Source: Beroe ovata (lineage: Eukaryota; Ctenophora; Nuda; Beroida; Beroidae). From it: DNA of 38,930 nt. Position numbers and translations under genes: made by a program. Position 1 is the first letter of the stretch, and every line of letters starts with the position of its first letter. The notes beneath the pieces are model-generated. The model searched no databases. It was not told the origin of the DNA and was given only the letters and a program-made list of their open reading frames with translations. Shown here piece by piece: positions 20,746 through 33,500 of the stretch. The stretch covers positions 705,109-744,038 of the forward strand of contig CAMPET010000003.1 of assembly GCA_946803715.1 (NCBI GenBank), in the 5' to 3' direction.

Positions 20746-21049
20746 GCATGCTCATGCTAAATTGCTAAGACATGAACTGCAGCAGCTGACAACGCTTTGC
20801 GCGGCCGCGGTTTAGCATCGCCTTGTCGATCGATGATAGACCCTGTCGAGAATTTCGTTGCGCGCGCGCGCAAACTTATTCTCAAACTTATTCGCGGCTT
20901 GCATCAGCGGTCTAGCATCGCCAGACAAGCATCGCCAGACAACTGCATTTCGCGGAATGCAGTTGTCTGGCGATGCTAAACCGCGGCCGCGCGCGCAAAG
21001 CGTTGTCAGCTGCTGCAGTTCATGTCTTAGCAATTTAGCATGAGCATGC
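20746..21049. repeat. Long inverted repeat, 77 and 81 bp arms
   Basis: Bases 20746-20822 are repeated in reverse complement at 20969-21049; the only clear difference is a 4-base GCGC expansion. Inside the spacer, 20929-20949 and 20956-20976 form a second perfect 21-bp hairpin around TCGCGG. A transcript here would be strongly double-stranded. Confidence 0.9.
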
Positions 21050-21057
21050 GGAATTCC

Positions 21058-21170
21058 GCCTGTTCACACGTTGCGCCGCGCGCGCGGCCCTGTTCTACCC
21101 AGTGAACTGAAAAGTCGCGTCGCGGTCGTAGAGCGCGCGGAATATTTGGGTCACGCAACGCGGGAATTGT
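21058..21170. repeat. Dispersed repeat block shared with island 2
   Basis: The block running from CACACGTTGCG through CCTGTTCTACCCAGTGAACTG to ATATTTGGGTCACGCA recurs in the same orientation around 33810-33885 and in inverted form around 33945-34080. The copies differ by scattered substitutions. Confidence 0.75.
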
Positions 21171-21340
21171 CGGGCGATGCCAGACCGCTGATGCATATGC
21201 AAGTCTGAGAATAAGTTTGCGCGCGCAACGAAATTCTCGACAGGGTCTATCATCGATCGACAACGCGGGAACAATCATTTGCATTTGCACGGATCGACCA
21301 AATTTTACGTCGCGCCGCGCATATATGCAATTTCCTCCAA

Positions 21341-22135
21341 ATCTTTTTGTTCCTGAGATTTGGTGTACCAATAAAGTTTGCAACCTCAGTTAAGCCTTTC
21401 ACTTGTCCATATTCCATTGCATCAAAAGATGTGCATGGCACGAAAGTTATGTCCTACATGTGATTATTATTTATTTATTATCCAGTCACCAGTGGATATT
21501 ATGATTCAATCGACTTAGTATCTCTGTCTGAAATGTTCAATTGAATTGAATTGAACCATCTACTTACTTACAAGTGAAGTCTTGTAGGGATCAGTCTTAA
21601 GTGAATATTAGTGTTAATTCATGTCAAAATTATTCAATTCAATTCAATTCAATTCTGAAGCACATAAGGATAGCTGATTAAAAGATAAGGAGTAACATGG
21701 CCAAATGTTATCTTTCCACTGTTCCCAGCATATAAGTGAACAGTTACATTCAGGAAGAGTTACCTGATTTGTTCCTATGAATTTGAATCACATTTTTGGG
21801 AGCTGTCACATATCACCTCTAGGCCTATTCTACCCCTTCTTGTGAACTCAGGTTAAGCATTATTATGCTTAGACTTTCTTCATGCTGAAAAAAGTGTGGG
21901 CTTCAAACAAATTTGATTGTAATGACATAATTGATAAGCTAGTTATTTCATTGAAATATGGATATTTGTATAGATAACCAAAAGCTGACTTCCAACATAG
22001 CGTAAAGCATCACTCATTTGTATCTCATATCACTCTTATTACCCAAGTGAAATAATATAATTCCATGATACATGCAGTGAACATTTCTAATTTAATTATT
22101 GGAATTAAAAACAAATTTCCAGTAGGTCAGAAATC
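21341..22135. other. RPL26 upstream region with ATTCA repeats
   Basis: No coding sequence was recognised. It contains a TTGAA pentamer run near 21537-21555 and an ATTCA run at 21632-21655, which are reverse complements of each other about 80 bp apart. A likely 5' UTR splice acceptor (AAATTTCCAG) lies at 22122, 13 bases before the RPL26 ATG; this fits the known RPL26 intron just before the start codon in other animals. Confidence 0.5.
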
Positions 22136-29708: not shown

Positions 29709-30802
29709 GNGCGTGTGTGTGTGTGTGTGTGCGTGTGTGTGTATGTGTGTGTGTGTGTGTGACGTGTGTGTTTGTGGATGTGTATTGCGTTGGTCTGGGT
29801 GTGTTGTGTCGTATGAGAGAATCTTGTACATATTATCTCCACTTGGACATCTGTTACTTCTTCTCGAAGTATACCCGACTATTCTCATTTTGACAGGCAT
29901 GTGTTGATGTATTGTCGAGTAGTGGATGGCTAGCACCTGCCTTGGCTGCCATGGAGCTGTCACAGATGTGCACTCAAGCCATGTGGAAGCGTGACAGTTA
30001 CCTCAAACAACTACCACACTTCACTGAGGAAATGATTAAACGGTATGATTCACTGACTATCATTAAGTCATTTGATGACCAAGTGTACCTATCAATTATA
30101 ACTGCAAATGCACATGTATCATGTGAGGGTCTCATTGCAGATGTGAGGAAAAGAGTGTTGAGAGTGTGTTTGATATCATGGATCTCGAGGATGCTGAGAG
30201 AAATGAGTTACTTCAACTACCTGACTCCAAGATGCAGGTTCGTGTGACACACACAAAAACACACACACACACACATACACACGACCACAGACAGTAGACA
30301 GTAGACACACACAGTATACACATTGCACACACACAGTATACACACACACACACAGTTGACAGTATATACACTCACACACACTACATCTCCGCAGGACTTG
30401 GCACGATACTGTAACAGATACCCGAACATAGAGTTAACATACAAGGTACTCGACAAGGATAACATCAAATCAGGGGGTCCAGTGACAGTCACTGTGGATC
30501 TGGAGCGAGAGGATGAGGTTGTGGGTCACGTGATCGCTCCATTCTTCCCTACAAAACGGGAAGAGGGTTGGTGGGTAGTGGTCGGCGACACCAAAACAAA
30601 CACTCTCACATCAATCAAACGTATCACACTGTACCAGAAAGCGAATGTGAAGCTGGAGTTCATGGCTCCTGAGCCTGGCATGCACGAGTACGTGTTGTTC
30701 TTCATGTGTGACTCGTACATGGGCTGTGATCAGGAGTACACGTTTACACTTGGTGTGTCAGAAGCAGGCGAGTCATCAGATAGCAGTAGCGCAGAGGACT
30801 GA
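22722..30802 (+). CDS. SNRNP200: U5 snRNP helicase BRR2 (SNRNP200)
   Basis: Thirteen exons: 22722-22925, 22997-23137, 23230-23387, 23526-23673, 23795-23989, 24108-24371, 24481-25101, 25447-29016, 29104-29311, 29414-29658, 29897-30042, 30141-30237 and 30395-30802. They join in phase to about 2134 residues (human 2136). BRR2 unwinds U4/U6 during spliceosome activation. The start ([20 protein letters not shown]) matches the family. Cassette 1 has [28 protein letters not shown] and [10 protein letters not shown]. Cassette 2 has [17 protein letters not shown] in place of the usual [14 protein letters not shown] and [10 protein letters not shown]. Each cassette is followed by Sec63-type segments; the C-terminus keeps KREEGWWVV and [10 protein letters not shown]. 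Exon 8 (3570 bp) holds most of both cassettes. Two donors are non-standard: GTTTCT after exon 3 and GTTGTG, running into a GT microsatellite, after exon 10. Confidence 0.97.
29658..29777. repeat. GT microsatellite in SNRNP200 intron 10
   Basis: A GT tract with one ambiguous base (N at 29710) begins right at the 5' splice site of the intron 29659-29896. The donor is therefore GTTGTGTGTG, not a standard GTRAGT. Confidence 0.95.
30246..30380. repeat. CA microsatellite in SNRNP200 intron 12
   Basis: An interrupted CA tract fills most of the intron 30238-30394. In the pre-mRNA it is complementary to the GU tract of intron 10, with exons 11 and 12 lying between the two. Confidence 0.95.
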
Positions 30803-31240: not shown

Positions 31241-31506
31241 ATGGTATGAATATCATGCATTCTTGTCCCTCTGTGCCTGTGGATATATGCTAAGTTCATT
31301 CAGCCGCTAATTAACAAGATCTGGACTCCTGTTGTCAAGGCAGAGGAGAATTCCAGTGATGTTGCTGATCGACCTAGTGAATTCCCAAAGGACGAGGTAA
31401 AGTTTATGCACGGAATTCAACGTCTTCTCTGTTCCCCTGCCCCTTTAACCCCATTACACGCCGTAATAACGAAAATCTCTTTCAGGAAGAAGACAAGGTA
31501 AAGTAA
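31241..31506 (+). CDS. C18orf32/UPF0729-like small membrane protein with in-frame TGA (candidate selenoprotein)
   Basis: Two exons, 31241-31396 and 31486-31506, join in phase and encode about 58 residues if the third codon (TGA, 31247-31249) is read through. The peptide is M-V-(TGA)-ISCILVPLCLWIYAKFIQP, then a basic/polar segment (LINKIWTPVVKAEE) and an acidic tail ending EEDKVK. From memory, human C18orf32 opens MVCIPCIVIPVLLWIYKKF, so the TGA falls exactly on Cys3 with no gap, and the hydrophobic helix and following KF.(E/Q)P also align. The motif becomes U-x-x-C if TGA encodes selenocysteine. C18orf32 is a small hydrophobic protein reported on ER and lipid droplets; its function is poorly known. 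A SECIS-like fold lies in the 3' UTR. Alternatives are a base error (TGC or TGT read as TGA), a start in an unseen exon, or a decayed gene. Confidence 0.72.
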
Positions 31507-31512
31507 GGAAAT

Positions 31513-31583
31513 CGTGCAAACTTTGGATGATGGCTGTTCTCGAAAGTCTTCGACTGAGGCATGCTTGATGTTAGTTTTGTTCG
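31513..31583 (+). promoter_or_regulatory. Candidate form-2 SECIS element in the 3' UTR of the C18orf32-like gene
   Basis: Folded by hand, 31513-31522 pairs with 31573-31583 (helix I). Then comes an internal loop and the core ATGA (31527-31530) opposite TGAT (31566-31569), which can form the non-Watson-Crick quartet. Helix II pairs 31532-31541 with 31556-31565, with two single-base bulges. The unpaired AA (31543-31544) lies 12 nt after the core TGA, and the mini-stem AGTC/GACT (31545-31548 with 31552-31555) is closed over TTC. This is the layout of a form-2 SECIS. It starts 6 nt after the stop codon, with the core about 20 nt after it and about 190 nt of spliced mRNA after the in-frame TGA. 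Confidence 0.65.
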
Positions 31584-31979
31584 ATTTTCATTCACTTTGG
31601 ATAAAAATCCTACAACATTATTTGATTTCAGAAGTTCCTTAGATATTTTGTGTATAGTGTCAAAGTTATGACGAATATAATATGATGAATTTTCTTTGTA
31701 CGTACGACCGTGTGACACGAAAACATCTTTTTGTACTAGCAAAGTTTTGCCTTTTTGTTCTATGAGTAACGAACGCGCAGCAACTCTTTGGACAAATTTC
31801 GCGCTCACGTCTTGTCATTTCGTGGATGTGTGGATTTAACGCGTTTTGATATGATACGTATCTTCAATCATATCACAATCAAGTTGAATTTGTTGAAGTC
31901 ATAACAACTCTTATGATAGGCTCTGGACACACTGCAAAGCAAGACTCAATTGTAGTTTTAATAAGTAGCGGTGAAATTT

Positions 31980-33029
31980 ATGAAGGAGTCAGCAAACTTT
32001 GAGAATGCAGCTGTCACACATTCGTTGCACGTCGTGTATGATTTTAGTTGCAAAACAAAGTTGACATTTGAATTGATGCCGACCATCAGACTTTCAACCG
32101 AGTATGGATCGAAATATAATCGTGAATTGTGGGACAGAGATACTAGATCGAATTACTTTCAGCTGGTTGACGATCGCCGAAAGCGGATGCTGAGAGCTGG
32201 TTGTCATGCACCAATCCATTGGGAGCATGGGCCACAGTTTGAAGAAATTAAGATAGAGACCCCTGATCCATTCAAGGACCAAATACCCACTCTCTCCGAC
32301 GTACGACGTTCCCACGAACATACGATGAAGGAAGATGGTTCACTGAAAAGTAAACTTTCGCCGCCCCCTTCACGTACGGCGAAAATTGCATGGGTTGGTA
32401 CGGCAGCACCTACTCCAATTTCCGAATTTGAGCACCTTGAATGGAATTCCAATCATCAGGACGCCAATGAACATGGACTCAAGCGCAAATCTGAACAAAG
32501 AAGTCCTACTCCTGTGCAGGAGGATCGCAAGAAGATAAAAAAGCCTTTGTCTGCTGTTTGTCAACGACAAACTCCCATGCGACGTCCAATGTCCGCTCCA
32601 GCTTCACAGTTGTCCCGAGATTCATATCGATCTGCACGAAAGCAAAGTGACAGATGCACCACAAGCCCCCTATCTAGACCCGGGTCAGCCGTTAGTTCTA
32701 GAAGCAGGATGAGTTTGGATTATGAACGAACACATGGAAGTACAACTGCTGCATCTAAATCGTCTAGAAAAGCTCTCTTCATTGGTTCCTATCGAAGTCC
32801 AAGTCGAGAAGAATTTCGAACAGTCAAAGATGTACCGAGGATCTTTGAAAGGAATCAACTATCAAAACAACGACTTGCTGAGACTATGAAGTTCGAAAAG
32901 TTACCATCTGATAAGTACACTGGTCATAAAAATATTACACATTCGATTGAAATGGGTAACTTGCCCAAAGACATGTCTTCTTGGATTACTGAATACCAAG
33001 GCAATTTTAAAGTTTTCAAACCGTTTTGA
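31980..33029 (+). CDS. Uncharacterised basic, Ser/Arg-rich protein
   Basis: A single-exon frame of 349 codons from ATG 31980; a second in-frame ATG at 32076 gives MPTIRLSTEYGSKYNRELWD and may be the true start (317 residues). The protein has a folded-looking N-terminal part (KRMLRAGCHAPIHWEHGPQF), a long low-complexity basic middle (RRPMSAPASQ, SPLSRPGSAVSSRSRMS) and a conserved-looking tail ending MSSWITEYQGNFKVF. Short aromatic W.TEY..F motifs of this kind occur in several ciliary microtubule-associated proteins, but I cannot assign a family. It begins about 470 bp after the stop of the C18orf32-like gene on the same strand. Confidence 0.7.
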   Translation: MKESANFENAAVTHSLHVVYDFSCKTKLTFELMPTIRLSTEYGSKYNRELWDRDTRSNYFQLVDDRRKRMLRAGCHAPIHWEHGPQFEEIKIETPDPFKDQIPTLSDVRRSHEHTMKEDGSLKSKLSPPPSRTAKIAWVGTAAPTPISEFEHLEWNSNHQDANEHGLKRKSEQRSPTPVQEDRKKIKKPLSAVCQRQTPMRRPMSAPASQLSRDSYRSARKQSDRCTTSPLSRPGSAVSSRSRMSLDYERTHGSTTAASKSSRKALFIGSYRSPSREEFRTVKDVPRIFERNQLSKQRLAETMKFEKLPSDKYTGHKNITHSIEMGNLPKDMSSWITEYQGNFKVFKPF

Positions 33030-33428: not shown

Positions 33429-33500
33429 AACAACTGAGATCAGAAAATGTCGTGCACAGGTCATCTGACCTGTGCACGACATTTTCAGACCTCAGTTGTT
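33429..33500. repeat. Near-perfect 35-bp palindrome with 2-nt loop
   Basis: Arms 33429-33463 and 33466-33500 are reverse complements with two mismatches, meeting at GGTCA-TC-TGACC. A transcript would form a very stable hairpin. It stands at the edge of repeat island 2 and may be a terminal structure of that element. Confidence 0.9.

Follow-up and report, generated by a model that had tools for sequence, protein, structure and literature searches.

A predicted selenocysteine codon at the invariant Cys3 of a DUF4512/C18orf32 gene in the ctenophore Beroe ovata

A gene of the ctenophore Beroe ovata very probably encodes a selenocysteine (Sec)-containing protein of the DUF4512 family (C18orf32/UPF0729; PF14975), in which Sec would be inserted at codon 3 under the direction of a SECIS element. 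The gene is located in a stretch of 38,930 nucleotides (assembly GCA_946803715.1, contig CAMPET010000003.1, positions 705,109 to 744,038 of the forward strand), hereafter referred to as the window, and all the coordinates given without a locus name are positions in it. By the standard sequence criteria other than conservation in relatives, the gene probably represents a new animal selenoprotein family; such new families are rare. The genome also gave matches to Wnt, a family that is not known outside animals.

The DUF4512 gene and its in-frame TGA

Positions 31241-31258 of the window read ATG GTA TGA ATA TCA TGC and are followed by an open frame, as the preliminary description of this DNA had reported. 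Coding exon 1 (31241-31396, plus strand) comprises 52 codons and includes the TGA at 31247-31249, which is the predicted Sec codon and gives the putative N-terminus M-V-U-I-S-C. With the TGA read as one residue, exon 1 matches PF14975 from the first position of the profile at 48.0 bits (cut-off 27), and the part that follows the TGA matches at 41.8 bits on its own. The match extends across the TGA, so that the in-frame UGA is placed inside conserved coding sequence. The earlier identification of the gene as a C18orf32/UPF0729 homologue is borne out by this profile match and by an alignment with the human C18orf32 protein in which the first 32 residues need no gap.

A GT donor (31397) stands right after exon 1 and an acceptor, CTCTTTCAG, ends at 31485, delimiting a predicted intron of 89 nt (31397-31485, plus strand; GAG/GTAAAG at its start, CTCTTTCAG/GAA at its end). 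The predicted splice 31396/31486 would join exon 1 to a short coding exon 2 (31486-31506, same strand) that specifies E-E-D-K-V-K and ends in the stop codon TAA at 31504-31506. The resulting tail, EEDKVK, resembles the short charged C-terminal tails of several homologues. Farther downstream on the same strand, an open frame of 354 amino acids (31965-33026) was found to have no Pfam family above cut-off. A near-perfect palindromic hairpin at 33432-33497, which looks like a MITE-type element, was matched on both strands by several miRNA models below cut-off.

The first AG 3' of the TGA occurs at 31293, already within the conserved part, in agreement with the earlier observation that no splice acceptor lies between the two, and an upstream exon bypassing the TGA is ruled out on the same ground. 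Within exon 1 the TGA is followed by no in-frame ATG; the two CTG codons in frame there (31271 and 31277) both lie past the CxxC. The conserved N-terminus is therefore unreachable without the TGA, whether by splicing or from a later AUG. The adjoining gene, which carries a PF02889 match and which we take to be SNRNP200, terminates in TGA (30800-30802), and TGA is thus a normal stop codon in this genome. As exon 31241-31396 is the only DUF4512 match above cut-off in the whole 77.8-Mb genome, no Cys-containing copy able to cover for the TGA gene was found. A second genomic match (C5, 18.7 bits) was set aside as a chance match, its frame consisting, as judged by eye, of laminin-EGF-like repeats.

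The position of the TGA was examined in a set of 240 distinct homologues, consisting of the 120 listed of 434 and the 120 listed of 255 obtained in two profile searches. Bait sequences were added to the homologue search, since a protein search with exon 1 alone gave no match. The listed homologues are mostly vertebrates and insects by name, together with unnamed sequences; the set is bilaterian-biased and no named non-bilaterian was seen in it. The TGA corresponds to column 3 of the alignment, at which Cys is present in 238 of the 240 listed homologues, the two others being P0075, in which the N-terminus is missing, and P0116, in which it is out of frame. Cys6 is likewise present in 239 of the 240 (P0116 being the exception) and is retained in the Beroe ovata gene. 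The TGA therefore sits on one of the few invariant residues of the family and, as proposed in the preliminary description, would change the C-x-x-C of residues 3-6 to U-x-x-C; the family pattern would be preserved only with Sec taken as equivalent to Cys. Met-Val at positions 1-2, Cys6, Pro10, Leu13, Phe19 and Pro22 are common to the Beroe ovata protein and the family, whereas position 3 is TGA (predicted Sec) in the former and Cys in nearly all of the latter. A scan of prokaryote and viral contigs found no DUF4512 relatives, and the gene matched none of the Pfam models of the thioredoxin family at E 1 or better.

The putative SECIS element and other selenoprotein genes of the genome

A permissive Rfam scan of 2.7 kb surrounding the gene gave a match to SECIS_1 (RF00031; 20.8 bits) at 31517-31579, which begins ten bases past the predicted stop TAA on the same strand as the gene, and the element is thus predicted to sit in the 3' UTR of the transcript. 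The use of Sec by the family in this lineage, earlier inferred from the TGA/Cys exchange alone, is supported by this match. The element consists of AUGA (31527-31530), 12 nt, AAA (31543-31545), a mini-stem GUC/GAC and UGAU (31566-31569); the mini-stem apparently makes it a form II SECIS. In spacing and core letters it is the same as six elements found at known selenoprotein genes, and the energies of its helices are comparable to those of known SECIS elements in this genome.

These six elements were recovered in a genome-wide SECIS_1 search, which yielded at least eight matches (133 of the 1316 first-look candidates being scored): six adjoin selenoprotein genes, one belongs to a dispersed repeat and one is the element of the DUF4512 gene. 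The latter has the lowest score of the eight, all of which, including the six at selenoprotein genes, fall below the Rfam cut-off of 35 bits; this cut-off is therefore too strict for the genome. The six genes are SELENOO (SelO, 25.5 bits, cut-off 22.8), SELENOF (Sep15_SelM, 76.1 bits, cut-off 26; VCG-U-KLGRFPQ), SELENOK (24.7 bits, cut-off 23.3), SELENOH (Rdx, 25.6 bits, cut-off 22.6), GPX (a partial exon, 26.0 bits, below the cut-off of 27) and SELENOS (a partial exon, 16.9 bits, below the cut-off of 29.8). Each has an in-frame TGA at the place of Sec expected from the human proteins. At the SELENOS locus CIAPIN1 scores higher (18.2 bits), also below its own cut-off, and the identity of the gene follows mainly from the C-terminal GGG-U-G stop motif.

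The match in the dispersed repeat (L008, 23.8 bits, above the 20.8 bits of the DUF4512 element) was rejected as false: it belongs to a dispersed inverted repeat and fails our own scorer, described below. At least 99 genome matches to this repeat (L008:1429-1571) are listed, itself included, among 40 of 338 candidates scored. The minus strand of the window carries, at 21030-21389, a peptide-like fragment resembling the repeat, IDDRPCREFR.

The probability of a chance match was estimated in two ways. The Rfam E-value of the DUF4512 element is 6.85 per genome, which translates into 2.2e-5 for a single-strand stretch of 500 nt. In addition, a geometric scorer was set on the six known elements, with an upper helix of -5.3 or better and a lower duplex of -3.1 or better. 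The DUF4512 element was its sole match on both strands of the window, and at the other loci examined it gave no match besides the known elements. Random sequence of the same dinucleotide composition as the locality (145.9 Mb) yielded 110 matches, or 3.8e-4 per 500 nt, a rate to be taken as a guide only because the geometry was picked with the DUF4512 element in view and the cut-offs are those of the weakest of the six known elements; the scorer can also count one place twice, at spacings 11 and 12. Taking the Rfam E-value and the scorer together, a chance SECIS match within 500 nt has a probability of about 2e-5 to 4e-4.

The scorer was also applied to four SELENOW-type (Rdx) genes (L027, L028, L029 and L030) that had not been used to set it. 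Each of these has one in-frame TGA, and a fifth Rdx match has none. An element was located shortly downstream in three of the four; the gene missed was L030, which has an ambiguous base and is a near-copy of L028 about 1.5 kb apart from it on one contig. The three scorer-positive elements are absent from the eight SECIS_1 matches, and SECIS_1 thus misses true elements in this genome.

A covariance model was built from nine other SECIS elements of the genome, with the DUF4512 element excluded. It ranks this element top in the window, weakly (17.9 bits, E 0.27), the runners-up scoring 14.6 and 14.4 bits. Compared with shuffled sequences, the folding energy of the element is no better (z from -1.25 to 0.15, depending on the length of the flanks). 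Among the nine known elements z ranges from -4.21 to 0.02, two of the nine (-0.08 and 0.02) being near the DUF4512 element, and the folding energy of the whole structure fails to discriminate SECIS elements. The minimum-energy fold of the DUF4512 element at 67 nt is not the SECIS fold, which is obtained with longer flanks.

Selenocysteine machinery and alternative explanations

The genome was searched for tRNA-Sec, eEFSec, SelD and SepSecS. A tRNA-Sec is present at 70.1 bits, above its cut-off. An eEFSec domain (107.8 bits) and SelD (221.4 bits) were also found. SepSecS was not found in the genome with two models; the search was performed exon by exon and returned zero candidates, and its result is therefore weak evidence of absence. 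The missing SepSecS match is unexpected in view of the further apparent selenoprotein genes. Eight further tRNA-Sec-like matches (L011-L017) fall below the cut-off, five having scores of 42 to 46 bits, and are possibly pseudogenes or tRNA-Ser.

Three other accounts of the TGA were weighed against Sec insertion. A TGC or TGT codon might read as TGA owing to a sequencing error, a rare allele or a newly arisen pseudogene, the SECIS match then being due to chance. The gene is known from a single assembly, the SECIS score is low and the folding z is unremarkable, all of which agree with such an origin; yet the change would have had to strike an invariant Cys column and to coincide with a chance SECIS at the right place and on the right strand, for which the range of about 2e-5 to 4e-4 applies. 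The rest of the frame is, moreover, intact and conserved, and no other copy was found, and we consider this explanation improbable. Splicing provides another possibility, in that a second possible donor at 31498 (AAG/GTAAAG, sharing the donor hexamer of exon 1), used with the acceptor TTTGATTTCAG ending at 31631, would remove the SECIS-like hairpin as part of an intron; the TGA would then be a true stop in most of the transcripts and the product a null or regulatory transcript. The tail that would result, EEDKKFLRYFVYSVKVMTNII, does not, however, resemble the charged ones seen in the homologues, the sole copy found would be left without a product and the SECIS would become a coincidence, all of which makes such an arrangement very improbable.

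The in-frame TGA and the conserved frame downstream of it would also be expected of a selenium-free protein, produced by ordinary readthrough, from a near-cognate CTG start past the TGA (the in-frame codons at 31271 and 31277 being available) or by reassignment of TGA. Both of the CTG codons are, however, beyond the CxxC and would leave it out, and TGA serves as the ordinary stop of the SNRNP200-like gene. The exact replacement of Cys by TGA, in combination with the SECIS element and the Sec machinery, indicates Sec instead, and a selenium-free product is given almost no credence here.

According to the preferred reading, that of SECIS-directed Sec insertion, the mRNA would retain UGA as codon 3, and the SECIS element of the 3' UTR, situated some 190 nt further along the spliced mRNA, would recruit a SECIS-binding protein and eEFSec with Sec-tRNA. 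Sec would then be inserted in place of the invariant Cys3 of the family, converting CxxC to UxxC. Both the transcription of the SECIS element and the actual insertion of Sec are predicted here from genomic sequence. If the prediction is true, the ribosome must recode UGA at the second elongation step after initiation. Sec at residue 3 may be the most N-terminal Sec in animals, and no Sec closer to the start is known to us. Among the proteins of E. crassus, a SelW (eSelW) with Sec at position 9 is described in the available text of PMC3737529.

Relation to known proteins and implications for the family

SELENOK and SELENOS, the small selenoproteins of the ER membrane, are present in this genome and resemble the predicted protein in being short and membrane-associated and in the geometry of their SECIS elements; they differ from it in their unrelated sequence and in having Sec near the C-terminus rather than at residue 3. 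The human SELENOK and SELENOS proteins act in ERAD, a pathway that also bears on human C18orf32, as set out below. The SELENOW-type proteins also have Sec paired with Cys at a two-residue spacing, although as C-x-x-U in an Rdx domain, which is thioredoxin-like, whereas in the DUF4512 protein, which is short and hydrophobic, the pair is U-x-x-C and N-terminal. The AphC-like selenoprotein of sponges, as presented in the available text of PMC3473315, is likewise a lineage-limited animal selenoprotein family identified by genome search, but its domain is of the thioredoxin type. A TGA is absent from all nine AhpC-TSA matches that the present genome gave.

The preliminary description was not aware of UPF0729 as a listed selenoprotein family, and a search of the full-text literature, with subscription papers and preprints outside its scope, likewise found no paper in which DUF4512, C18orf32 or UPF0729 is treated as such. 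Other new families are named in the available parts of a metazoan (PMC3473315) and an algal (PMC7539508) selenoprotein survey. PMC9213792 describes human C18orf32 as a protein of lipid droplets, the level of which is set by ERAD. Among the GPI-anchor genes that PMC10940682 lists as mutated in patients with neurodevelopmental anomalies, C18orf32 is included (citing Salian 2022). The available portions of these two articles state no role for the invariant CxxC.

The exchange of Sec and Cys at one position is strong evidence of a catalytic residue. The predicted U-x-x-C protein of Beroe ovata is thus probably redox-active and, less certainly, its U-x-x-C pair may constitute a thiol/selenol redox site at the membranes of the ER or of lipid droplets. 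The replacement of Cys by Sec suggests, in turn, that Cys3 performs redox chemistry across the whole DUF4512 family. We are inclined, with some reserve, to regard DUF4512/C18orf32 as a redox family with an invariant N-terminal CxxC active site, which in this lineage has become a selenoenzyme with Sec as residue 3. If this is true, a UGA at codon 3 would provide a stringent test of how early after initiation Sec recoding works, and a chemical function, thiol/selenol redox, would be indicated for C18orf32.
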